This document shows positions 42,561 to 53,030 of a stretch of 64,000 nt of DNA, piece by piece (within the stretch, counting starts at the first letter, position 1; each line of letters opens with the position of its first letter). The translations under genes were made by a program, and so were the position numbers. The notes under the pieces were generated by a model. That model had not been told where the DNA came from and ran no database searches. It worked only from the letters and a program-made list of their open reading frames with translations. The stretch comes from Pseudomonadales bacterium (lineage in GTDB: Bacteria > Pseudomonadota > Gammaproteobacteria > Pseudomonadales > DC-out160): positions 372,001-436,000 of the forward strand of contig JAHRWA010000039.1 in assembly GCA_019090455.1 (NCBI GenBank). The letters run 5' to 3'.

Positions 42561-45500
42561 CTACTCATCAAATATCCAACGCGGCTTTTCTATGCCATAG
42601 CCTTGTGCGTAGTCCACCCCAATTTCCCTTAGTTTTTCTAATATCGCCTCATTTTCTACGAATTCTGCTACGACCTTTTTCCCCATTAAATGCCCCATCT
42701 CCGTAATCGATTTTACCATAGAAAAATCGTTGGCATCCGTCGCAATGCCTTTTACAAAAGCACCGTCAATCTTTATATAGTCCACCGGTAAATTCTTAAG
42801 ATAGGTATAGGACGACATACCAGAACCAAAATCATCGAGTGAAAATTCACAACCTATGTTTTTCATTTCTTCGATAAAGTCGGCAGCATCAGCGATATTG
42901 GTGATGGCGACTGTTTCCGTCACCTCAAAGCAGATCTTATTCCTTGGAATTTCAAAATTACGAAATTCCTCAAAGATAAACTTCATCAAGCGTTCATCAT
43001 TTAAAGAATCTCCAGACAGATTAATAGAAAACCCGCCAAAGCTCTCCAATTTAGCGGGATTTTTTTGCATCCAACGAAACACCGTATTTATCACCCACCG
43101 ATCCACGATTTGCATTCTGTTGTACTTTTCAGCTGCATTGATAAATTCCACCGGCGGAATTTGATTGCCATCTTCATCCTCAACACACAACAACACTTCA
43201 TAGTGCAATCGCAATGTCGACTCCGTCTCTCCCAGCGGAACGATAGGTTCAATTCTTTGTGCTCGCAATCGAAGCCGATTTTCATCCAATGCTCGATGAA
43301 CTTTAGCCACCCATTCCATCACATTTTGGCGAGATACCAACTCTTCATCATCAGGCTTATAAATGTGTACCCGGTCTCGCCCTGCGCTCTTGGCAGCCAC
43401 ACAAGCAGACTCACTATGTTTAAATAAATTGGAAACCAAATCACACTCATTCGTAATTTCCATCAAACCCATACTGACCCCTAAAGTGAAGGGCGTTCCT
43501 TTCCACTTAAACCGAAACGACTGGATTGCTGTAATCATATTGTCGGCTATTCGATACCCCTTCTCCTCTTTACAGTTTTCAACCAAGATAGCGAAAGTAT
43601 TACCTCCCAATCTTGCAACACAACCCTCACTAGCTTCGTCAGCAAACAGCCCTGTCAGCAACTCCCCTATTTGTCGCAATAAACTATCACCCGCTTCATA
43701 GCCACAGGTACTATTGATCACCTTAAATTGATCCAAATCCATATATATCAGACAATGTATAATGCCATCCCGCTTTGCCCTAACAATAGCTCGCCCTAAT
43801 ATTCGTTCAAATTCCTTACGACTCACCAGCCCAGTTAACTGATCGTGAGTCGTTTCATAGGCCAATTGATCATAAATTTTTTGAACCATTGAATCTAAAC
43901 CTTGATCCACGATAGGCAAATCCTTATGTGCAATCGACCACGCCGCCTCTCTAGACAAATTCACTGCAAACTCATCTAATGTTTGCTCTATTACCTTTAG
44001 CCCTTGGTGATTAACAAATACGAATTTATCACGGGACTTTGAAATCCAAGCCAACCGCGCTCTCTCGATCCCTTTTCCAGGAAATTTAAAGGCGACCCAC
44101 TCCCCCATCTCAAGACTCAGCGCTCTGTCACTCCATTTCTGAAAATCTGCCTCACTCGCAACTTCAGACTCCATTCTGCCCTTGCGCTTTAATTTCTCAA
44201 TGATGGATCGCGGCGTCGCTGATACCAGCGGTTTAAAATCGACTAATTGAGGTTTTATCCGCCCTCCTAAGAGATTTTCTTTAAGCTCTGCCAAGACCTC
44301 TGCATGCAGCGATTCCGTATCGGCAACTTTCAATAATCCATTATTAATGAGTTTCAAGAGTGCTTCCGGTATGATCGCCGGTGCAGAGTCAGCACCATAC
44401 GGCTTATCCACCGACTGATTCGTCAATTGCAAGAACAGCTGTTCAACAATTTGCAACCCCATTACCCAGGGCTTACTCTTATCGCCTTGCCGCAAATAAG
44501 AGAGCAACAACAACTCTCTCCAGCCCGCATCCAATAATTTCAACAACAGTGTCGGTACTTGTTTGCTATCAAGTCGCTGGCTGATTTCTGCGTCAATTCT
44601 AATACGCGCTTTTTCAATTCGATCCTGGCCTTCACAAGCTTCGGTAACACGACTTACGTTTCGCTGATAAACCTGCTCCTGCTTAGACAACATCTCTTCT
44701 AGCTTTTCAATGACTCCTTCAAACACGACTAACTTTGTTTCGAAATTCTCCGCTATTTCACTCACGGCCCACTCTGCGTATAGAATCGACTCATCAAAAC
44801 AGGCGCCATTCTTCAAACCTAATCTCGCGACGTAATTCAATACTTGTCGTACAGGATGGTTAGGATAGGTTAATAACGATGCATCCAATATCAGCACTTT
44901 GACCGCAGGCACCAACAGACGACTAAAAAGGGGCTTTATCTCATCAGAAAGAATCGGGTTTGAAACGATAGATTCAAACAACCGCTCCAGCACTTCAACA
45001 GCTTCCGCTTCCTCGGACCCGATTTCCTTTTCTGAAGGTTTTTTTTCAGCCAAGACAGTTTCTAGCTTACTCAACAATGCGTGCCCATCTACCCACTTAC
45101 CCCTTTCCTTCGCCTCTTGTATCGCTTCCGCCGATGCCTGCTTGCCATAGGTAGACTGCATTTTGTTTAAGGCGTCAATAATTTCTTTCGGACTGTAGGC
45201 AGGCCGCATTGTCTTGGGGGAATTGACATAGCGACGAAAGGATGGGATTTGCTCGCCTTCCACCTGATTTGAAATAGCAGATTCACGATATTTTTTTATT
45301 TGCAATAGTTCATGTGCCGCGCCGTACGCTTTTGGTGTGGTCGACGATTGCTGAACAAATTGAGTAGAGAGCTGAACAGGCTGGCTCCTATCTAAGTCGG
45401 CGCCTTTTCTGTCAGTTCTATTGGAAAGCGTTTTTCCGTTGCCTTGATTCGTGGATTGACTAGATTGATTCGTTACGGATTGGCCCACCGCCGCAGTCGA

Positions 45501-46655
45501 ACTTTTCTTTCGCCGTTCCTTATGCTTATCTTCCCTTTTGTTGACTACTTCTTTTTTTGCTCTTTGTTTTTTTACTTCCGGTTTCTCGGCCTGCTGGTAT
45601 TGACTGAGATCTAATTTTGGAAGAACGCCCTCCTCCGCCAACGTACTATTCAATTCTCGGTATAGTGGGTCCAATTGACTCAGGACTTTCTCCTTAAATC
45701 CAGAGTAAATGAGTTTTGTCACCTTTTTATGTAATTGCAAAGGTTCAATGGCTCCTCGAAAACAATCACATAATACTGAGGGACCAAAGGGGTTGTTAGT
45801 TTGCCCGATTTTCGTTTTCGTTAAATCATCAAGACGCAATTGCAATTCTAATAGAGGTTCCCGATAAGCACTCTCTGCTTTGGTCACCATCACCTTTAAG
45901 GTCAACCAATCTTCGAATTCTTCTTTCTCAACAATTGACAGCTGAGGGGCTTTGATAAGATGGGGATGTAGCTCGTTTCTTTGACTCAGTAAAATTATGT
46001 TCGCGTTGTGCTGCTCAAAGGATTCCTGAAACTCGACTTGGATGGCTTCTTTTTCACGCTCAATGGTAGGAATACAATGGTAATAAATATTCTGCTGCTC
46101 CCGTCTATCCAGCTTATTCGCCGCTGCTACCAGGCTATATTCTATTTCAGCAAATACCATATCGAACAAGGGCATGATGAAATCATCAGTCGCAATACAG
46201 AGACGTTTCACCACTTTTTTTAGTTTGACGACATCCAGCTTACTCGGGGTTTTTCTTGAATCTTCTACTCCCCCTCGATAACTTGAGAGCTGCGCAGGTT
46301 CGTCTGATTTTTTTTCTTCTGAATTGGCTTGAGTACTCTCAGCGATGCTTTGCAAGGCCGCCAATGCAACGGGATCCGGCTCCGAGAATTCTAACCCCAA
46401 AGCACCCGCCGTCTGATGGGCTAATTTCGCCTGCATTTTAATAAAACGGCCCGAAATCATCATCAGCAATTCGACACAAACTCCCCGCCGAATTTGGGCA
46501 GGACTCATCAATCTGGCATCGGGATCACTAACGTAGGTCAAATACACCCCGCCAGAACAAAAATCTCGGATGACACAGCTGACTAGTGGACCATCTCCAA
46601 TCTTATATTGTGCTGTTAAAAAAAGACTCTGGCGCGGATACGCCCTATTATTCAC
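42561..46655 (-). CDS. PilZ-DUF1631-GGDEF-EAL multidomain c-di-GMP protein
   Basis: A 1364-residue cytoplasmic protein that combines c-di-GMP binding and turnover modules. The N-terminus is PilZ-like (PRQSLFLTAQYKIG, DFCSGGVYL). A long DUF1631 region (about residues 130-860) contains a disordered Lys/Ser/Gln tract around 365-420. Then comes a GGDEF domain (about 930-1090) with a degenerate motif, GGNTF. The C-terminal EAL domain keeps its key residues: YEVLL (E of EAL), FSINLSG, CFEVTET, SLDDFGSG, YIKIDG and VVAEFVEN, so phosphodiesterase activity is likely. Start is GTG 46655. It is alone on the minus strand, downstream of the DUF3106 gene. Confidence 0.93.
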   Translation of the reverse strand: MNNRAYPRQSLFLTAQYKIGDGPLVSCVIRDFCSGGVYLTYVSDPDARLMSPAQIRRGVCVELLMMISGRFIKMQAKLAHQTAGALGLEFSEPDPVALAALQSIAESTQANSEEKKSDEPAQLSSYRGGVEDSRKTPSKLDVVKLKKVVKRLCIATDDFIMPLFDMVFAEIEYSLVAAANKLDRREQQNIYYHCIPTIEREKEAIQVEFQESFEQHNANIILLSQRNELHPHLIKAPQLSIVEKEEFEDWLTLKVMVTKAESAYREPLLELQLRLDDLTKTKIGQTNNPFGPSVLCDCFRGAIEPLQLHKKVTKLIYSGFKEKVLSQLDPLYRELNSTLAEEGVLPKLDLSQYQQAEKPEVKKQRAKKEVVNKREDKHKERRKKSSTAAVGQSVTNQSSQSTNQGNGKTLSNRTDRKGADLDRSQPVQLSTQFVQQSSTTPKAYGAAHELLQIKKYRESAISNQVEGEQIPSFRRYVNSPKTMRPAYSPKEIIDALNKMQSTYGKQASAEAIQEAKERGKWVDGHALLSKLETVLAEKKPSEKEIGSEEAEAVEVLERLFESIVSNPILSDEIKPLFSRLLVPAVKVLILDASLLTYPNHPVRQVLNYVARLGLKNGACFDESILYAEWAVSEIAENFETKLVVFEGVIEKLEEMLSKQEQVYQRNVSRVTEACEGQDRIEKARIRIDAEISQRLDSKQVPTLLLKLLDAGWRELLLLSYLRQGDKSKPWVMGLQIVEQLFLQLTNQSVDKPYGADSAPAIIPEALLKLINNGLLKVADTESLHAEVLAELKENLLGGRIKPQLVDFKPLVSATPRSIIEKLKRKGRMESEVASEADFQKWSDRALSLEMGEWVAFKFPGKGIERARLAWISKSRDKFVFVNHQGLKVIEQTLDEFAVNLSREAAWSIAHKDLPIVDQGLDSMVQKIYDQLAYETTHDQLTGLVSRKEFERILGRAIVRAKRDGIIHCLIYMDLDQFKVINSTCGYEAGDSLLRQIGELLTGLFADEASEGCVARLGGNTFAILVENCKEEKGYRIADNMITAIQSFRFKWKGTPFTLGVSMGLMEITNECDLVSNLFKHSESACVAAKSAGRDRVHIYKPDDEELVSRQNVMEWVAKVHRALDENRLRLRAQRIEPIVPLGETESTLRLHYEVLLCVEDEDGNQIPPVEFINAAEKYNRMQIVDRWVINTVFRWMQKNPAKLESFGGFSINLSGDSLNDERLMKFIFEEFRNFEIPRNKICFEVTETVAITNIADAADFIEEMKNIGCEFSLDDFGSGMSSYTYLKNLPVDYIKIDGAFVKGIATDANDFSMVKSITEMGHLMGKKVVAEFVENEAILEKLREIGVDYAQGYGIEKPRWIFDE

Positions 46656-46789: not shown

Positions 46790-47401
46790 TCAGTTTTGCT
46801 GTATCACCTCTCTATTTCTGCGATTTTTTTGCAACATTTCACGAATCACCGGCCTTCTCTCCGCAGGCGTTAAGTTCTGACCTTTTCGCCTAGGTACCTT
46901 ACGGCTTTCTGGCCTTTTACCCATTCGTTCTTTAGCTAACTTTTTCTGTGCAGGTGTCAGCTTTTTCCACCTTTTCTTTAAGTGCTGCCTTTTTTCCGGA
47001 GGCAAATTCATAAACCATTTATACTTACGTTTTATCTCCTGTCGTCGCTCTATTGGTAACCCCCTATATTTTTCAAATCTCGTTTTTAATTTCTGACGTT
47101 TTTCTGGCGTCAATTTCTTCCAACGTTGAAAGCGTTTTTTGGCTGTCAATTTTTCGTCTGGAGTCATCACCTGCCAACGGTCTGCCCCTCTCGATAGATA
47201 CGCTTGTTTGTCAGGAGCAAAGCCATCCCAGCTATCAGAAAATCGAGAAAGCACCTGTCGTTGGTCAGCTGTCAATTGTTCCCAATTTCGGCCAGAAACG
47301 GGCTCTGCATCTGCTAAACTGGTCATTGTCCACAACACACAAAGACTCAACAACACAACACGGGCAATCAATACTTCACTTATTATCATCATACGTTTCA
47401 T
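46790..47401 (-). CDS. DUF3106 secreted protein with 18-residue repeats
   Basis: A 203-residue exported protein with a signal peptide (cleavage near LADA-EP). The rest is a run of 18-residue units beginning with Trp, Tyr or Phe and containing a LTP(E/D)KR core: WEQLTADQRQVLSRFSDS, WDGFAPDKQAYLSRGADR, WQVMTPDEKLTAKKRFQR, WKKLTPEKRQKLKTRFEK and YRGLPIERRQEIKRKYKW, followed by a shorter sixth and a partial seventh. This is the DUF3106 pattern. It is very basic and likely helical. It is the last gene of the ECF sigma operon, with its ATG directly after the preceding stop. Confidence 0.85.
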   Translation of the reverse strand: MKRMMIISEVLIARVVLLSLCVLWTMTSLADAEPVSGRNWEQLTADQRQVLSRFSDSWDGFAPDKQAYLSRGADRWQVMTPDEKLTAKKRFQRWKKLTPEKRQKLKTRFEKYRGLPIERRQEIKRKYKWFMNLPPEKRQHLKKRWKKLTPAQKKLAKERMGKRPESRKVPRRKGQNLTPAERRPVIREMLQKNRRNREVIQQN

Positions 47402-47683
47402 TTAATTGCTCCCCCTTTCTGTTTCAGTATTTGCTCCATGACGAACACTATTTTCTCGCTTCTCTGACAGGGTGACAGCATCGTCAGATATCGATTTAGA
47501 TGTCGCATTGGCCATTGCATCAACTTCAAAAGGATCTAACCATTGACCGTCGTCCTCCTGAAATTGACCTAAATACTCCAAAAACTCCACACTAGGTGCT
47601 TCTACTTCACTCGCCATCACGTTAACCATTCCACAAAAAAAAACGGTTACACCCAGCTTGATCCTGCTGATCTCAGCCGGCAT
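47402..47683 (-). CDS. Small secreted acidic protein of the ECF operon
   Basis: A 93-residue protein with an N-terminal hydrophobic signal (GVTVFFCGMVNVMAS) and an acidic stretch (EFLEYLGQFQEDDGQWLDPFEV). I recognise no named family. Its start overlaps the previous stop by eleven bases, and the DUF3106 start follows its stop immediately. The acidic character contrasts with the basic DUF3106 partner, which could suggest interaction. Confidence 0.7.
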   Translation of the reverse strand: MPAEISRIKLGVTVFFCGMVNVMASEVEAPSVEFLEYLGQFQEDDGQWLDPFEVDAMANATSKSISDDAVTLSEKRENSVRHGANTETERGSN

Positions 47684-48176
47684 GCACTTCTCCTAGCGCC
47701 GTGTTCTCTGGAAGCGGCTCTCCCATCATCGCTTCGTCATCAACCAACCACGCCACAAACTCTAGCTCGTCAATAAAGTCTGGGTCTTCCTGCCAATACT
47801 CTTCAAACAAACCTTCGACTACCTCTCCTGTCATTTCAACATCGATCAATTCAACATCGATCAATTCAACAAGCGACTGCGATACATCTATCTTTTCCGG
47901 AGTATCGGGAATCACTATCCACATAACCGCCACTGCAGCTGTGGCGGCTAGGGAAGTCAGAGCGAACCCAGGCATTTGAAAAATGCGGCCTTGATCCGAG
48001 TTTATCGCAATCGCTTTCTCTCGCGCCTGATTCAACTTCGAGCGCGTAACGGCATCCAGACTGTGAACACTTTCATCCAACGACTGATTGATATGTTCTT
48101 GCATTTGGTGCTGACCCTGACCTTGACCCTGATTTTGACCAGAGTCAGAACCTAAACCTAAGTCATCCTCTTTCAT
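47673..48176 (-). CDS. DUF3619-like single-pass membrane protein, probable anti-sigma factor
   Basis: The 167-residue protein has a Gln/Gly-rich N-terminus, a helical stretch (INQSLDESVHSLDAVTRSKLNQAREKAIA) that fits DUF3619, one membrane helix (FALTSLAATAAVAVMWIVI, about residues 70-88) and an acidic periplasmic tail. The tail contains an in-frame duplication (VELID-VELID, 47836-47870). It lies directly after an ECF sigma gene, as anti-sigma factors usually do, so that role is inferred from context. It overlaps the next gene by eleven bases. Confidence 0.7.
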   Translation of the reverse strand: MKEDDLGLGSDSGQNQGQGQGQHQMQEHINQSLDESVHSLDAVTRSKLNQAREKAIAINSDQGRIFQMPGFALTSLAATAAVAVMWIVIPDTPEKIDVSQSLVELIDVELIDVEMTGEVVEGLFEEYWQEDPDFIDELEFVAWLVDDEAMMGEPLPENTALGEVHAG

Positions 48177-48206: not shown

Positions 48207-48752
48207 TCATTGCCAATCTATCCCTTGAGCTAGCAATTTCTTTTTCAAACTCCCAATGGCCCTGGAGTAATGCGTTTTAACACTACCACCAGAGCATCCC
48301 ATCGCCGCCGCCGTTTCTTTTACATTTAACCCTTCCCAGCTTCTCAACAAAAAAGTCTGTTGCTGGCGTAGCGGCAACTCCATCACTGCCGCTACCATCT
48401 TTTCCGTTGCCAGTCCTTTTTCAAGCTCTCGATAAGGCTCTTGTGCATTATTATCTTTTGCAGTTTGAATCGGATCTTCAACCTGTTCTTCATACTCGCC
48501 AGCCGTCATCCCTACCCAAGACATAACGCGATTTTTCACTGACCGTTTACGATGAAAGTCCACTATCGTATTTTGTAAAATACGCCTAAATAAAGCAGGC
48601 CATTCCGCTTCCGGTCGTTCACTGTATCGGCGCACCAGTTTAATCATCGAATCTTGTACGATGTCCAACGCATCCTCTCTGTTTCGGGTTGATAGCTCTG
48701 CCATTCTAAAAGACCTTGCTTCAACGCTGGCTAAGAACCGATCTAACGCCAA
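48207..48752 (-). CDS. ECF-type RNA polymerase sigma factor
   Basis: The 181-residue product is a sigma-70 family ECF protein with region 2 (RNREDALDIVQDSMIKLVRRY, then ALFRRILQNTIVDFHRKR) and region 4 (LPLRQQQTFLLRSWEGLNVKETAAAMGCSGGSVKTHYSRAIGSLKKKL). The only reasonable starts are non-ATG: TTG 48752, or CTG 48764, which has GAGG nine bases upstream. An ATG at about 48704 would cut region 2. It begins an operon of DUF3619-like, small acidic and DUF3106 genes, a layout known in other proteobacteria. Its target regulon is not visible. Confidence 0.9.
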   Translation of the reverse strand: MALDRFLASVEARSFRMAELSTRNREDALDIVQDSMIKLVRRYSERPEAEWPALFRRILQNTIVDFHRKRSVKNRVMSWVGMTAGEYEEQVEDPIQTAKDNNAQEPYRELEKGLATEKMVAAVMELPLRQQQTFLLRSWEGLNVKETAAAMGCSGGSVKTHYSRAIGSLKKKLLAQGIDWQ

Positions 48753-48836: not shown

Positions 48837-50384
48837 TCACTGCTCGATATTGGTTTCTATCATGGTGTGTGCCTCATAATCTTCAGGAGCGCTGCCAAAC
48901 GGTGTTATGAATCCTCGGGTTTTGACTACATCACGAAAGTCTATGTTCTCAAGCGTCAGACTGCCCGAATCGATTTCATAATAATCACGCTCTGCATCGC
49001 TAGTTTCTTCTGCGCCAGTCCCCGAAAAATCAAACAAATCAGGCCGACGTCCATTGATCCAAAGCAGATCCACCGCTAGCGGCTCGACAGATACCACAAC
49101 TCCTTTAATGACATTCATCATCATCCTCACGTGACCATTGCGAGTATTCAGCGAGATCTCTCTCAATCTTTCTCCGCTGACATCACCTCTCTGCTCTCTA
49201 TTGAGTTCACCAAATGCCACAAGACGCTGTCCCACTGAGATGGAATCGATGTCCACTCCCTCATTATCTAATCCTTGGCGAGTGACTCTTGTGGATTCAG
49301 TCAGAGTGACCAGTACATTGTCATTGAACGAAACGGATCGATCCGCTCTGTCCCAATGACGTCCACGCACCGTTACAATATTCTCATCTCTAGCGATCAC
49401 AACACCTCGAATCGCATCATGACCAAACCAAGGTACACTGGTACCAGCGTGCACTCGATCAGCCACGAATCCGATATTGGTTCTCAGATTATCATCAACT
49501 TCATCGCTCACTACAGCCATATGGCCAAAGGTAAGAATGGGGGTATCCACATCCAGTCTTGCCATCAAAAGCAAGCCGGCCTCACCTGTTGCCAGCTCAC
49601 CATTAATCTCATAATGGGTTGTTCCATGAGTCGTGACTGTTACCTCGCCAAATTCACCGTGCCTGCGATAAAAGGGGCGGAGCTTCGCACTAAATTGACT
49701 AGACTCCACATCAACGGATTTCAAGAGACCTCTGGCTCGATGCCCTCGATCTCGATTGAACTCCGCATCGGCTAAAATAAAAGGCTCCACCGTCACAATA
49801 GCCGGATCAAAAGACTCAATGGTATTTGACGCTTCCAAGTCAAAGTCCAGGGTCAAGGACGCCGGTACGCCATGTTTAATCACAATAGGTAAATCATCAT
49901 CAAGTTGAACTGACACTTGCATTGATGTGATTGTCTCACCACTGGAATCAAAGGCAGTAGCGGAATAGGCCATTCCATTATCATCTTGGATAACGATTTC
50001 CGCATCTTGATAATTTAAATTGAGTGCTGCTGAAACATAGACTCCTGTGGGTAAAGTCACCACATTAAAAAACTCAGTCATCTCCGTGTATTCTGCAAAA
50101 TCAATGCGAGTCGTCAGCGGTATGGTTTCCACCTCCGCGCCATTGGCTTTCTTTAACGTAATCGATTCCACATCAACGGTATAAGAAAGAAAGTCACCCT
50201 CCGCATCGGTAATGGCCACTTGCAGTTGCCCCGTATTCTGTACTGATGCACTCAGCTCCTTTGTCTCTTCAGCAGTCGTGCCACTGCCTCCGCATCCTGA
50301 AAAACCTAAACAAGCCGTCAATAAACCCAGGACTATTAAGCCCGTGCTCCCCTTACTCGTTATTTTCAATCGATGATTTAACAT
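48837..50384 (-). CDS. DUF4382/DUF5666 lipoprotein
   Basis: An exported lipoprotein (GFSGC-GGSG) with an N-terminal DUF4382 domain (GQLQVAITDAEGDFLSYTVDVESITLKKANGA, LPTGVYVSAALNLNYQDA) and C-terminal DUF5666-like beta repeats (GVVIARDENIVTVRG...VSFNDNVLVTL, GQRLVAFGEL). I choose ATG 50384; a frame start at 50429 adds 15 residues before the signal. It lies between the barrel gene upstream and the ECF sigma gene downstream, all on the minus strand. Function unknown. DUF4382 proteins are usually outer-membrane or periplasmic. Confidence 0.8.
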   Translation of the reverse strand: MLNHRLKITSKGSTGLIVLGLLTACLGFSGCGGSGTTAEETKELSASVQNTGQLQVAITDAEGDFLSYTVDVESITLKKANGAEVETIPLTTRIDFAEYTEMTEFFNVVTLPTGVYVSAALNLNYQDAEIVIQDDNGMAYSATAFDSSGETITSMQVSVQLDDDLPIVIKHGVPASLTLDFDLEASNTIESFDPAIVTVEPFILADAEFNRDRGHRARGLLKSVDVESSQFSAKLRPFYRRHGEFGEVTVTTHGTTHYEINGELATGEAGLLLMARLDVDTPILTFGHMAVVSDEVDDNLRTNIGFVADRVHAGTSVPWFGHDAIRGVVIARDENIVTVRGRHWDRADRSVSFNDNVLVTLTESTRVTRQGLDNEGVDIDSISVGQRLVAFGELNREQRGDVSGERLREISLNTRNGHVRMMMNVIKGVVVSVEPLAVDLLWINGRRPDLFDFSGTGAEETSDAERDYYEIDSGSLTLENIDFRDVVKTRGFITPFGSAPEDYEAHTMIETNIEQ

Positions 50385-50527
50385 CTCCGTCACTCCCGAA
50401 TTAGTATTATAAAAATAGTAAGCAACCAAATAGCAAAGAATTTAAATGCCCCTTAAATTCGGGTTATCTCTTAAATTAACGCTATCTATAGTTAAACGAG
50501 AAAGGGAAAAATAGGTTGACAGGGATT

Positions 50528-52132
50528 TCAGAAAATCCAACTAAAATTGAGATGAGCCGTCACATCACCGGCTTCAATCGTATTTTCAGGTCCATAAAGA
50601 GTGAAGTCTTGAACCGTCGCTATCGTATCCAAGCGGTTGATTTCCTTAAGCGGATAACCCACCGTCGCATCGACAGCAAGACTATCACCCAAAGCAAGGA
50701 CCAGCCCCAAACCTAAGCTGGCGAGAGTACCCGAAGCATCCGTTAGTCCATAGGAGCTAGATAAAAACGGTAATCTTCCCTCTCGCTCAATACGGAAGTA
50801 CGCGGCATCGACGAATAAAAACACCTCTTCTAGACCCATGCCTTTTTCATTCCGAGGAAGTAACCAATGATATTCCATCGTCGCACTCACAACGGTATCA
50901 GCGCTAACCTGTGACTCCGGATACCCTCGTACCGTCGCGCCACCTCCCAATGGAGCTAACATTTGGGGGGGTAAAATAGACCCCAAACTGCTTTGACCTT
51001 GAGTCGTCATTTGTAGATGACGATCCATCCCACTATTCACTCTACTGACCTCACTAGCCTTTGAATCTGCATCTTTACAATTGAGACACCAATCCCACGA
51101 CAACAGCCAATCAATGATAACGAAGTCATTGTCGGCATTAGGCCTTCCCAATACACCCAACTCATCATCAGTGCCCATAATGTTTGCAGCACTGTGTGTC
51201 ATCGAAGCTCGCCCATAAAATTCTTGCCCATCAATATCAGTGGCACCGACAATCGAAACAAAAGGTAATAGAAAATCAAAATGATCATCACCCGGTAACG
51301 TCGTGGAATTCAACAAACAATAATCTCGAGAAACCGTGACATCATCAGGATCACTGTCTGAGGGGTTGGGGTCATCAATACACACTTCCGTCGATCCACA
51401 AGCATTGGGAAACCGACTGCAAAGTGTATCCGTGATATCAACCTTGAATTTTGAAGTTAAGGTATAAGACAGATTAATTCTCTGCCATTTGAGACCTAAA
51501 TCAATTTGAAAAAAGCGGTCTTGATTTTCCAACAGCACACCTTCCAAACTCATCACCATCCCAAATTGTGACTCCTCGAATTGATCAAAGAGAGTGGCAA
51601 CATAAAAATCACCGACATCGGTATTCGATAGAAAACCAAATTGACTACGATTTGCCAGCCTTTCACGTTGTTCAGCTGATAACGGAACAACCCAATCAAA
51701 AGCCGAGCGATGCACTTCGCCTAAATCAAAACCCAAATTCCAGCGCCAAGGAGAACTATTCGACCTTCCATTAAAAGGTTGGCTATAGCGCCCTATCAAG
51801 CTGTATACAGAATTTAGCGAATCAGTATAAAACCCTAATGATAATTGATCTGATGGTTTGAAGAGGTTTTCCTTATCCATCGAAAGAGATTGCCCCCAAT
51901 ATTCGCCATGCCTATCGGCATTGGATAGCTCAAACCTAAAGGGTCGATTTTCATTTATCCTGGAGATTTCTTTTATCGCGAGGCCTTCATTCACGACATC
52001 ATCAAGACCTAAGAGAAATTCGAAATCACCCGCTTCTTCATTGCTTTCGGACTGACAAAATCCCTGACCACTCACAGCCACAAGAAATGACAGGAAAAAA
52101 TAGAAGAGGGCCCGCTGTATGCCTTGATGCAT
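50528..52132 (-). CDS. TpsB/Omp85-like outer-membrane barrel without POTRA domains
   Basis: The protein has a signal peptide (from ATG 52132, four bases after the phosphoesterase stop) and a barrel that resembles ShlB/FhaC transporters: the N-terminal NADRHGEYWGQSLSMDKENLF pattern, then GDQ-like strands, the loop-6 motif GGGATVRGYPESQVSAD and a terminal Phe (LNFSWIF). POTRA domains, which normally precede the barrel, are absent. A loop near residues 255-305 holds several Cys residues (CSRFPNACGSTEVC) that may form disulfides. No exoprotein (TpsA) gene is near. The longer start at 52171 overlaps the upstream gene. Confidence 0.75.
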   Translation of the reverse strand: MHQGIQRALFYFFLSFLVAVSGQGFCQSESNEEAGDFEFLLGLDDVVNEGLAIKEISRINENRPFRFELSNADRHGEYWGQSLSMDKENLFKPSDQLSLGFYTDSLNSVYSLIGRYSQPFNGRSNSSPWRWNLGFDLGEVHRSAFDWVVPLSAEQRERLANRSQFGFLSNTDVGDFYVATLFDQFEESQFGMVMSLEGVLLENQDRFFQIDLGLKWQRINLSYTLTSKFKVDITDTLCSRFPNACGSTEVCIDDPNPSDSDPDDVTVSRDYCLLNSTTLPGDDHFDFLLPFVSIVGATDIDGQEFYGRASMTHSAANIMGTDDELGVLGRPNADNDFVIIDWLLSWDWCLNCKDADSKASEVSRVNSGMDRHLQMTTQGQSSLGSILPPQMLAPLGGGATVRGYPESQVSADTVVSATMEYHWLLPRNEKGMGLEEVFLFVDAAYFRIEREGRLPFLSSSYGLTDASGTLASLGLGLVLALGDSLAVDATVGYPLKEINRLDTIATVQDFTLYGPENTIEAGDVTAHLNFSWIF

Positions 52133-52136
52133 TCCC

Positions 52137-53030
52137 CTAAAACTCACTCTCAACCTCAATCTCGCCATCATCCCAAATTAGCTTCGGCAAATTGTCTCCT
52201 CTCCAATAAGCTTGGCTTCGTTCCTTAGGGTAGCCGAAGCAGTGTGATATATAGGTGATTCCTTCCTCTTTACGATGACGGTTTCGATGCTGATGTCCAT
52301 AGATATGTAATAGCGAGCCGAGTTGTCGTACCTGGCTATCCAAGTCGACAGTGCCTGCAACACCAGTGAAATTAAACTGCGGTAACGGATCTTTAAATTG
52401 ACTCAGGTTCTGCCGCCAATTACCCAAAGGAAAAATCAAATCTTGGCGTGGTAAAAAATGACTAAACGAAATCACAGGCGCATCGTAATCCCGCTGACAA
52501 GTCGCCACATTGAGATCAAGAAAAAAATCCACCACACGTTGGTTGGTTTTCAATTGCGTCCAACGACAAAAAAAGTTATCGCTCCATATTGCCTCAGTCT
52601 CATCCTTAACCGGATTAGTCGCTGAGGATTTATCATAATAAAGAGAATCCTCGCCTTCTTCCGGTTTGGTGTACCAGGAAAACAGCGGCACCACCCAAGC
52701 GGCCTTATCTCCCACCCCCAATTTTTTCGGCTGAGTCTGAACTCCAATTCGCTCACACATTTTCACAATCGCCCAAAACTTAGACACTGAGTCCTCAAAT
52801 CCACCACGTCTTACCCACAGTTCGTGATTACCGGGCACAAAAAAGACTTCGGCATAAATCGTTTTAAAATGGGATAACAATTGTTCTAATTTTCCTAAAT
52901 CATCCGTCGCGTCACCAGCAACAATTAAGGTTGCTTCCGCATAAGCAGGATCATTCAGGTTAAGTAAGTGATCAAAATTACCCTTATAGTCCACGTGCAT
53001 ATCAGACATTGTGTATATTTTATTTGTCAT
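52137..53030 (-). CDS. Calcineurin-like metallophosphoesterase
   Basis: A 297-residue cytoplasmic phosphoesterase with the metal motifs YTMSDMHVD, IVAGDATDD, VPGNHELW and YGHQHRNRH in order, as in calcineurin-like enzymes. The substrate is not clear; related proteins act on nucleotides or phospholipids. It has no signal peptide. It begins the minus-strand run that leads into the barrel, DUF4382 and ECF genes, with four bases to the barrel start. Confidence 0.92.
   Translation of the reverse strand: MTNKIYTMSDMHVDYKGNFDHLLNLNDPAYAEATLIVAGDATDDLGKLEQLLSHFKTIYAEVFFVPGNHELWVRRGGFEDSVSKFWAIVKMCERIGVQTQPKKLGVGDKAAWVVPLFSWYTKPEEGEDSLYYDKSSATNPVKDETEAIWSDNFFCRWTQLKTNQRVVDFFLDLNVATCQRDYDAPVISFSHFLPRQDLIFPLGNWRQNLSQFKDPLPQFNFTGVAGTVDLDSQVRQLGSLLHIYGHQHRNRHRKEEGITYISHCFGYPKERSQAYWRGDNLPKLIWDDGEIEVESEF

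Follow-up and report, generated by a model that had tools for sequence, protein, structure and literature searches.

A predicted POTRA-less TpsB-type barrel beside a SigAb-like sigma factor operon in Pseudomonadales

Genes at the locus

We analysed a 64,000-nucleotide stretch of the genome of a Pseudomonadales bacterium (GenBank assembly GCA_019090455.1, contig JAHRWA010000039.1, forward-strand positions 372,001 to 436,000; hereafter the window), in which a predicted outer-membrane barrel lies next to the genes of an extracytoplasmic function (ECF) sigma factor and its putative regulators. All of these genes are on the minus strand and are read in the order phosphoesterase, barrel, DUF4382 lipoprotein, ECF sigma factor, DUF3619-like protein, small periplasmic protein and DUF3106 protein. 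A first-pass annotation of the same DNA had taken the phosphoesterase, the barrel, the lipoprotein and the sigma factor for an unrecognised envelope system controlled by that sigma factor.

The barrel gene (50528..52132) encodes 534 amino acids (aa), assigned by homology and a structure model to a 16-stranded outer-membrane barrel of the TpsB/FhaC type that lacks POTRA domains. Its ATG at 52132, upstream of which a further in-frame ATG occurs at 52171, is separated by four bases (52133-52136) from the stop codon of a calcineurin-like metallophosphoesterase gene (52137..53030; Metallophos, 37.3 bits, cut-off 21.5), in whose product no signal peptide was seen. Downstream of the barrel, comparative sequence analysis predicts an ECF promoter of the SigAb type, GTCAACC-N15-CGTT (that is, GTCAAC-16-CGTT), at 50495..50520, followed by the DUF4382 lipoprotein gene (48837..50384; 36.5 bits, cut-off 25) and the sigma factor gene (48207..48752; NF006550, PRK09047, 225.7 bits, cut-off 173).

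Three genes for predicted regulators or periplasmic proteins come next. The first (47673..48176) encodes a DUF3619-like single-pass membrane protein, a predicted anti-sigma factor that scores just below the family cut-off (PF12279, 20.5 bits, cut-off 22.2) and has a hydrophobic stretch at residue 71 and the motif EFVAWL in its tail. It is followed by a small predicted periplasmic protein of 93 aa (47402..47683) with an EFLEYL motif and the sequence GQWLDP, and by a DUF3106 periplasmic protein (46790..47401; PF11304, 99.8 bits, cut-off 24.3). Just 3' of the DUF3106 gene, at 42561-46655, lies a gene for a 1364-aa protein, presumably of PilZ plus GGDEF/EAL composition, and the divergent gene beyond the phosphoesterase encodes what we take to be an M16-type peptidase.

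The four-base gap is as the first-pass annotation described it, and so is the sigma factor gene, which comes next on this strand and falls a little beyond the 48837-53030 stretch to which that annotation applied. Its label for the lipoprotein, DUF4382/DUF5666, holds for the first half: a Pfam search of the window protein did not detect DUF5666 at E ≤ 1, and in one homologue this domain scores 14.7 bits, under the cut-off of 27. The structure model of the DUF4382 protein was unusable, with a predicted local distance difference test (pLDDT) score of 28.

A TpsB-type barrel without POTRA domains

The window barrel matches the Pfam family ShlB weakly (14.7 bits, cut-off 22.7). Two of its orthologues pass the ShlB cut-off (G012 at 53.2 bits and G292 at 30.1 bits), a third (G150) passes that of Omp85, and ShlB is the best-scoring family in five of the six full-length members of the barrel family. 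The RGY.E motif, the F.D motif and a final Phe are present in 6/6 members, with VRGYPE at residue 401 in the window protein. An AlphaFold2 model built from ten sequences has 16 strands and is of middling confidence (pLDDT 64.7, predicted template modelling score 0.63), and almost all of residues 1-62 fall below pLDDT 50. In a Foldseek search with this model FhaC ranked first (E 3.8e-12). VIA-align superimposed residues 57-534 of the model onto residues 181-554 of FhaC with a Z score of 28.2 and a root-mean-square deviation of 2.1 over 281 residues, and its four best chains were FhaC and CdiB (Z 27.2-28.2), with BamA and TamA lower (at most 25.5). The barrel thus shares with the TpsB proteins FhaC, CdiB and ShlB the 16 strands, the VRGY motif of L6, the FxD motif and the C-terminal Phe, and its best structural match is FhaC. 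It differs from them in having neither POTRA domains nor a TpsA neighbour, and in falling under the ShlB cut-off.

No POTRA model in Pfam matched any of the six members, whereas 25/25 ordinary TpsB comparators from the same order matched both ShlB and POTRA_2. The comparators were drawn from 36 loci, after dropping seven without a motif-bearing open reading frame, one in the wrong frame (L172), one truncated (L174) and two (L011, L012) that are themselves members of the barrel family. We also searched the six carrier genomes for a stand-alone POTRA that might act in trans, with the Pfam POTRA_2 model only, and found no short frame; the seven matches were all in frames of 561-727 aa. Where POTRA domains would be expected, the window protein has a signal peptide and a short acidic tail, with DFEFL at residue 36 and the barrel starting at about residue 57, and a tail motif of the form [DEG][FY]x[FH]L occurs 30-57 residues from the start in 6/6 members. 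Taken together, homology and the model indicate that this is a TpsB/FhaC-type barrel of the Omp85 superfamily in which loss of the POTRA domains has left only a short acidic periplasmic tail. The barrel with its VRGYPES motif and terminal Phe, the absence of POTRA domains and the absence of a TpsA partner, all noted in the first-pass annotation, are upheld by these searches and by the neighbourhoods described below. Its Cys-rich loops are a feature of one lineage. The mature part has six cysteines in the window and all six are retained in the sister species, but three further homologues have two and G012 has none past its first 28 residues; because the counts differ in this way, the cysteines are lineage-specific. 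A CxxC pair at residues 349-352, in a modelled turn before L6, is likewise retained only in the sister species.

In a tree of 33 barrels, which omits the truncated L040 and four TpsB comparators (L036, L168, L173 and L176), the six members group with the TpsB proteins of two Phycisphaerales genomes and one Spartobacteria genome, with support of 99/98. The POTRA-less six are split in the best tree, and a single clade was not rejected by the approximately unbiased test (p-AU 0.136). The barrel is under purifying selection in the G273/G292 pair (dN 0.125, dS 0.896, dN/dS 0.14), and a codon comparison of the window with its sister genome G001 gave pN 0.24 and pS 0.76. Our literature search, judged by titles and abstract openings, found no paper on a TpsB barrel without POTRA domains.

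The nearest published parallel is the noNterm subfamily of Heinz and Lithgow (2014; PMC4104836), which are likewise Omp85-superfamily barrels without N-terminal domains and for which a role in membrane protein biogenesis has been suggested. If the window barrel were a general outer-membrane protein insertase of this kind, the existence of a POTRA-less Omp85 subfamily with such a suggested role would be its precedent. However, that paper describes the noNterm proteins as Omp85 proteins resembling the metallo-Omp85 barrels, and its authors found no additional subfamily whose barrel is of TpsB type (PMC4104836). By that description the window barrel, which matches TpsB proteins best and is tied to one ECF operon, would stand apart. 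FhaC and CdiB also outrank BamA and TamA as structural matches, and ShlB is the best family score in 5/6 members, so that we regard the insertase explanation as quite improbable.

A sigma factor operon of the SigAb kind

The sigma factor and its downstream genes resemble a system described in Acinetobacter baumannii. According to that report (PMC12153292), the SigAb promoter, defined by mutagenesis, has a -35 element GTCAAC, a -10 element CGTT, a 17-base pair (bp) spacer (16 is tolerated) and an A/T-rich upstream element. The operon encodes the sigma factor, a 107-aa membrane protein (AabA) and a periplasmic protein (AabB), of which the last two have anti-sigma activity, and AabB is predicted to fold around the periplasmic end of AabA. 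SigAb is termed Acinetobacter-specific there, its regulon is small, and copper responsiveness is reported (PMC12153292).

In an A. baumannii record we found three overlapping genes of 204, 106 and 129 aa, with a promoter that has a 17-nucleotide spacer 86 bp upstream, and from size, overlap and promoter we take this locus to be sigAb. Its sigma factor belongs to NF006550 (236.7 bits, cut-off 173) and is 81.5% identical to a sigma factor from family f35 and 35.8% identical to that of the window; its third protein is a DUF3106 protein (38.1 bits, cut-off 24.3). The window DUF3619-like protein agrees with AabA in position and in having one hydrophobic stretch, and no sequence match to the DUF3619 model was detected for the A. 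baumannii protein. Because the two loci share the NF006550 family, the promoter elements and a DUF3106 protein, the sigma system of the window is, as judged from sequence, of the SigAb kind, with the gene order sigma factor, (predicted) membrane anti-sigma factor, DUF3106. In this respect the ECF part of the locus is not the unrecognised system that had been proposed, but of the SigAb-AabA-AabB type (PMC12153292). The window operon differs from that of A. baumannii in opening with a DUF4382 lipoprotein gene and in having an extra small periplasmic gene, and the A. baumannii locus has no barrel beside it. In passing, three records of 3.7-4.1 Mb that are filed as A. baumannii plasmids in PLSDB (NZ_CP077849.1, NZ_CP064203.1 and NZ_CP104448.1) look like chromosomes.

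The SigAb-type sigma family is widespread. Among genomes sampled across the class Gammaproteobacteria it was matched in 71/274 genomes and 59/222 genera, and within the order Pseudomonadales we read the neighbourhoods of all 70 matches, which come from 69 of 390 genomes and 22 families. A DUF3619-like gene is present in 69/70 of these loci and a DUF3106 gene in 61/70; a DUF4382 lipoprotein gene lies upstream of the ECF gene in eight loci from five families. We found no paper on DUF3106 or DUF3619. Nine ECF loci carry other barrels, either upstream of the ECF gene (barrelB; f14, f47) or after the DUF3106 gene (barrelC; f28, f29). These proteins (in L132, L135, L138 and in L088, L092, L103, L110, L119, L128) are outer-membrane-like and about 275-305 aa long, and by score one barrelB is a Gram-negative porin. 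Often the sigma operon opens with a gene whose secreted product consists of RLDxKGDRIxx repeats (L243, L248, L105, L117, L098 and others).

The promoter is close to invariant. Of the 70 loci, 52 have the pattern GTCAAC-16-CGT on the strand of the ECF gene, against 0.9 expected from shuffled sequence, while other spacers occur 0-3 times each; the following base is T at every site, though this was not imposed in the search. In the sample from the class it was found in 26 of 29 further loci (0.15 expected), these being the best-scoring 29 of 74 ECF matches. It precedes whichever gene opens the operon: the DUF4382 gene in the window and in f38, and genes for small secreted proteins in many other loci.

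Beyond the ECF loci the motif is rare. The strict form has 43 sites in the 69 genomes, against ten for a reversed control, and about half of them are at the ECF locus; the remaining readable sites are mostly upstream of genes for secreted proteins, lipoproteins or pilins. A looser form showed no excess in the six barrel genomes (29 sites, 45 in the reversed control). Since strict sites are few and the looser motif does not rise above its control, we set aside a large regulon, and by this measure the regulon looks small, as reported for SigAb (PMC12153292). Among the individual sites, one precedes a glycine-zipper lipoprotein gene by 74 bp in three related f41 genomes (L224, L225, L226), and in G273 and G292 (L193, L188) one precedes GspH/FimT-type pseudopilin genes by about 100 bp, which makes it possible that minor pilins are under control of the sigma factor.

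A further pattern concerns the regulators themselves. A [DE][FL]xx[FYW]L motif is found in the tail of the DUF3619 anti-sigma factor in 48 of 69 cases (2.2 expected), and a motif of the same type in the small periplasmic protein in 16 of 29 (1.0 expected); it was present in the N-terminus of 0/5 barrels. That these two regulators have such a motif in common suggests competition for one partner.

Linkage of the barrel to the sigma operon

Full-length barrel members, identified with a profile of the six, occur in 6 of the 390 genomes and in three families (f1, f12 and f28); in 28 other genomes profile matches (E ≤ 1e-6) cover the C-terminal part only. In five loci, each on one contig (the window, G012, G292, G273 and G150), the barrel lies directly 5' of the ECF operon, at 103-221 bp from the ECF gene except in the window, where the DUF4382 gene lies between. 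The sixth member, from the sister genome G001 (f1), fits the window order, with the DUF4382 gene cut by contig ends on both sides, and we infer that its barrel also adjoins the ECF operon across the contig break.

The outer neighbour of the barrel is the phosphoesterase in f1, by our reading a divergent ABC transporter in f12, and in f28 presumably an iron-type alcohol dehydrogenase. Because these neighbours vary, it is the barrel-ECF pair that is conserved, and the phosphoesterase, found in 1/70 ECF loci and on a separate contig of the sister genome, adjoins the barrel in this genus alone. We therefore dropped it as a functional partner of the barrel. Neighbour content in relatives is thus not random, as adjacency of barrel and ECF operon recurs in three families with differing outer neighbours, but conservation of the four-gene order, which the first-pass annotation named as a check, does not extend beyond the genus, with the phosphoesterase in 1/70 and DUF4382 in 8/70 ECF loci.

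The position of the promoter also bears on that proposal. In the window the predicted site sits 3' of the barrel stop codon, between the barrel and DUF4382 genes, and therefore cannot transcribe the barrel or the phosphoesterase. It is predicted to head a unit of DUF4382, ECF sigma factor, DUF3619, small protein and DUF3106 genes, with the barrel outside. Upstream of the f28 barrel we read by eye a sigma70-like TTGACG...TAATAC. A single four-gene envelope operon under control of the ECF sigma factor accounts for the shared strand and the short gaps in the window, but with the promoter downstream of two of its genes and the phosphoesterase at 1/70 loci it is highly improbable, and direct control of the barrel and phosphoesterase by the sigma factor is not indicated.

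TpsB pores are normally paired with an exported partner, and the barrel might work without POTRA domains as a secretion pore for a specific partner, such as the DUF4382 lipoprotein, which it would export or display on the surface in a reduced two-partner secretion (TPS) system. The TpsB-type barrel with both signature motifs and its place beside the DUF4382 gene in f1 would fit this, as would a POTRA-bearing Phycisphaerales relative (L039) that is followed by a very large open reading frame of TpsA-like size. However, DUF4382 and the barrel occur together only in f1, and the barrels of f12 and f28 have no such lipoprotein gene next to them. No TpsA-type gene was seen beside the barrel in the five single-contig loci or on the G001 contig C105, and in a second Phycisphaerales relative (L041) no large TpsA-like gene follows on its strand. 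Also missing are the POTRA domains, which in known TPS systems bind the substrate, and we consider such a pore unlikely.

Alternatively, the adjacency may have been inherited by chance, with the barrel unrelated to the sigma system. In favour of this, the two would lie in separate transcription units, the barrel is missing from 65 of the 70 ECF loci, and all carriers found fall within one order. Yet adjacency persists where the proteins are only 18-23% identical and where the outer neighbours differ; all six full-length members among the 390 genomes are at an ECF operon, although for one this is inferred across a contig break; and in f14, f47, f28 and f29 the clusters contain outer-membrane-like barrels of other kinds. 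Chance adjacency thus seems fairly unlikely.

Discussion

We favour a reading in which the locus consists of two adjoining units, a SigAb-type envelope-stress operon opening with the DUF4382 gene and a separately transcribed POTRA-less barrel that acts as its linked outer-membrane partner, and we put its probability at roughly 0.62. The first unit would comprise the phosphoesterase and barrel genes on the minus strand. The second would comprise the DUF4382 lipoprotein, the sigma factor, the DUF3619 anti-sigma factor, the small periplasmic protein and the DUF3106 protein, behind a promoter of their own; the promoter element is predicted from comparative sequence, and its autoregulatory use is presumed from the experiments on SigAb. 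If the system works as that of SigAb does, the sigma factor would be held by the cytoplasmic part of the membrane anti-sigma factor, whose periplasmic tail would be bound by DUF3106; an envelope or metal signal would then free the sigma factor, leading to synthesis of the lipoprotein and of more of the sigma factor's own regulators. The conserved tail motif of DUF3619 may be the contact for DUF3106, for which the small protein may compete. As for the barrel, its conserved adjacency suggests that it most likely serves the sigma response as an outer-membrane partner with expression of its own. Its N-terminal tail could report the state of the outer membrane to the periplasmic regulators, or the barrel could be an export or assembly gate for envelope proteins.

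Several observations weigh against the two-unit reading. The tie between barrel and sigma factor is drawn from gene adjacency only. The barrel is present in only 5 of the 70 ECF loci, which means that the sigma system can do without it, and the regions read upstream of the barrels showed no site of the SigAb type. The promoter motif is absent from the searched stretch of 16/70 ECF loci, in one of which, that of G001, the site is on another contig. The middle A. baumannii protein was undetected by the DUF3619 model at E ≤ 10, and its homology is argued from position, size and topology. Finally, confidence in the barrel model is, as noted above, middling.

A bolder proposal is that the POTRA-less TpsB-type barrel replaces the TonB-dependent receptor of cell-surface signalling, its tail reporting the outer-membrane or metal state to the switch formed by the sigma factor, DUF3619 and DUF3106; the small protein and the tail of the anti-sigma factor, which have a motif in common, would perhaps compete for DUF3106. 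As in the FecA-type and VreA-VreI-VreR systems (PMC2729926), an envelope protein, a membrane anti-sigma factor and an ECF sigma factor are encoded together, and VreI controls a TPS locus (PMC2729926). In those systems the receptor is a TonB-dependent or STN-domain protein; neither was seen at the window locus, and no STN signalling domain of the FecA/VreA type was detected in the barrel at E ≤ 1. We regard this proposal as distinctly unlikely, and return to the two-unit reading for what the locus may mean.

SigAb was published as Acinetobacter-specific (PMC12153292), yet the system is far wider, with the sigma family in over a quarter of the genomes sampled across the class. Because the SigAb-type promoter is nearly invariant across the class, the regulon should be readable from sequence in many non-pathogenic bacteria. 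As for the barrel, POTRA domains are held to let TpsB pores recognise cargo, and a TpsB barrel that is under selection yet lacks them raises the question of its function. The fixed position beside the sigma operon offers a direct way into that question, and the pairing with a SigAb-type operon points to an unexplored link between an outer-membrane pore and a stress response.

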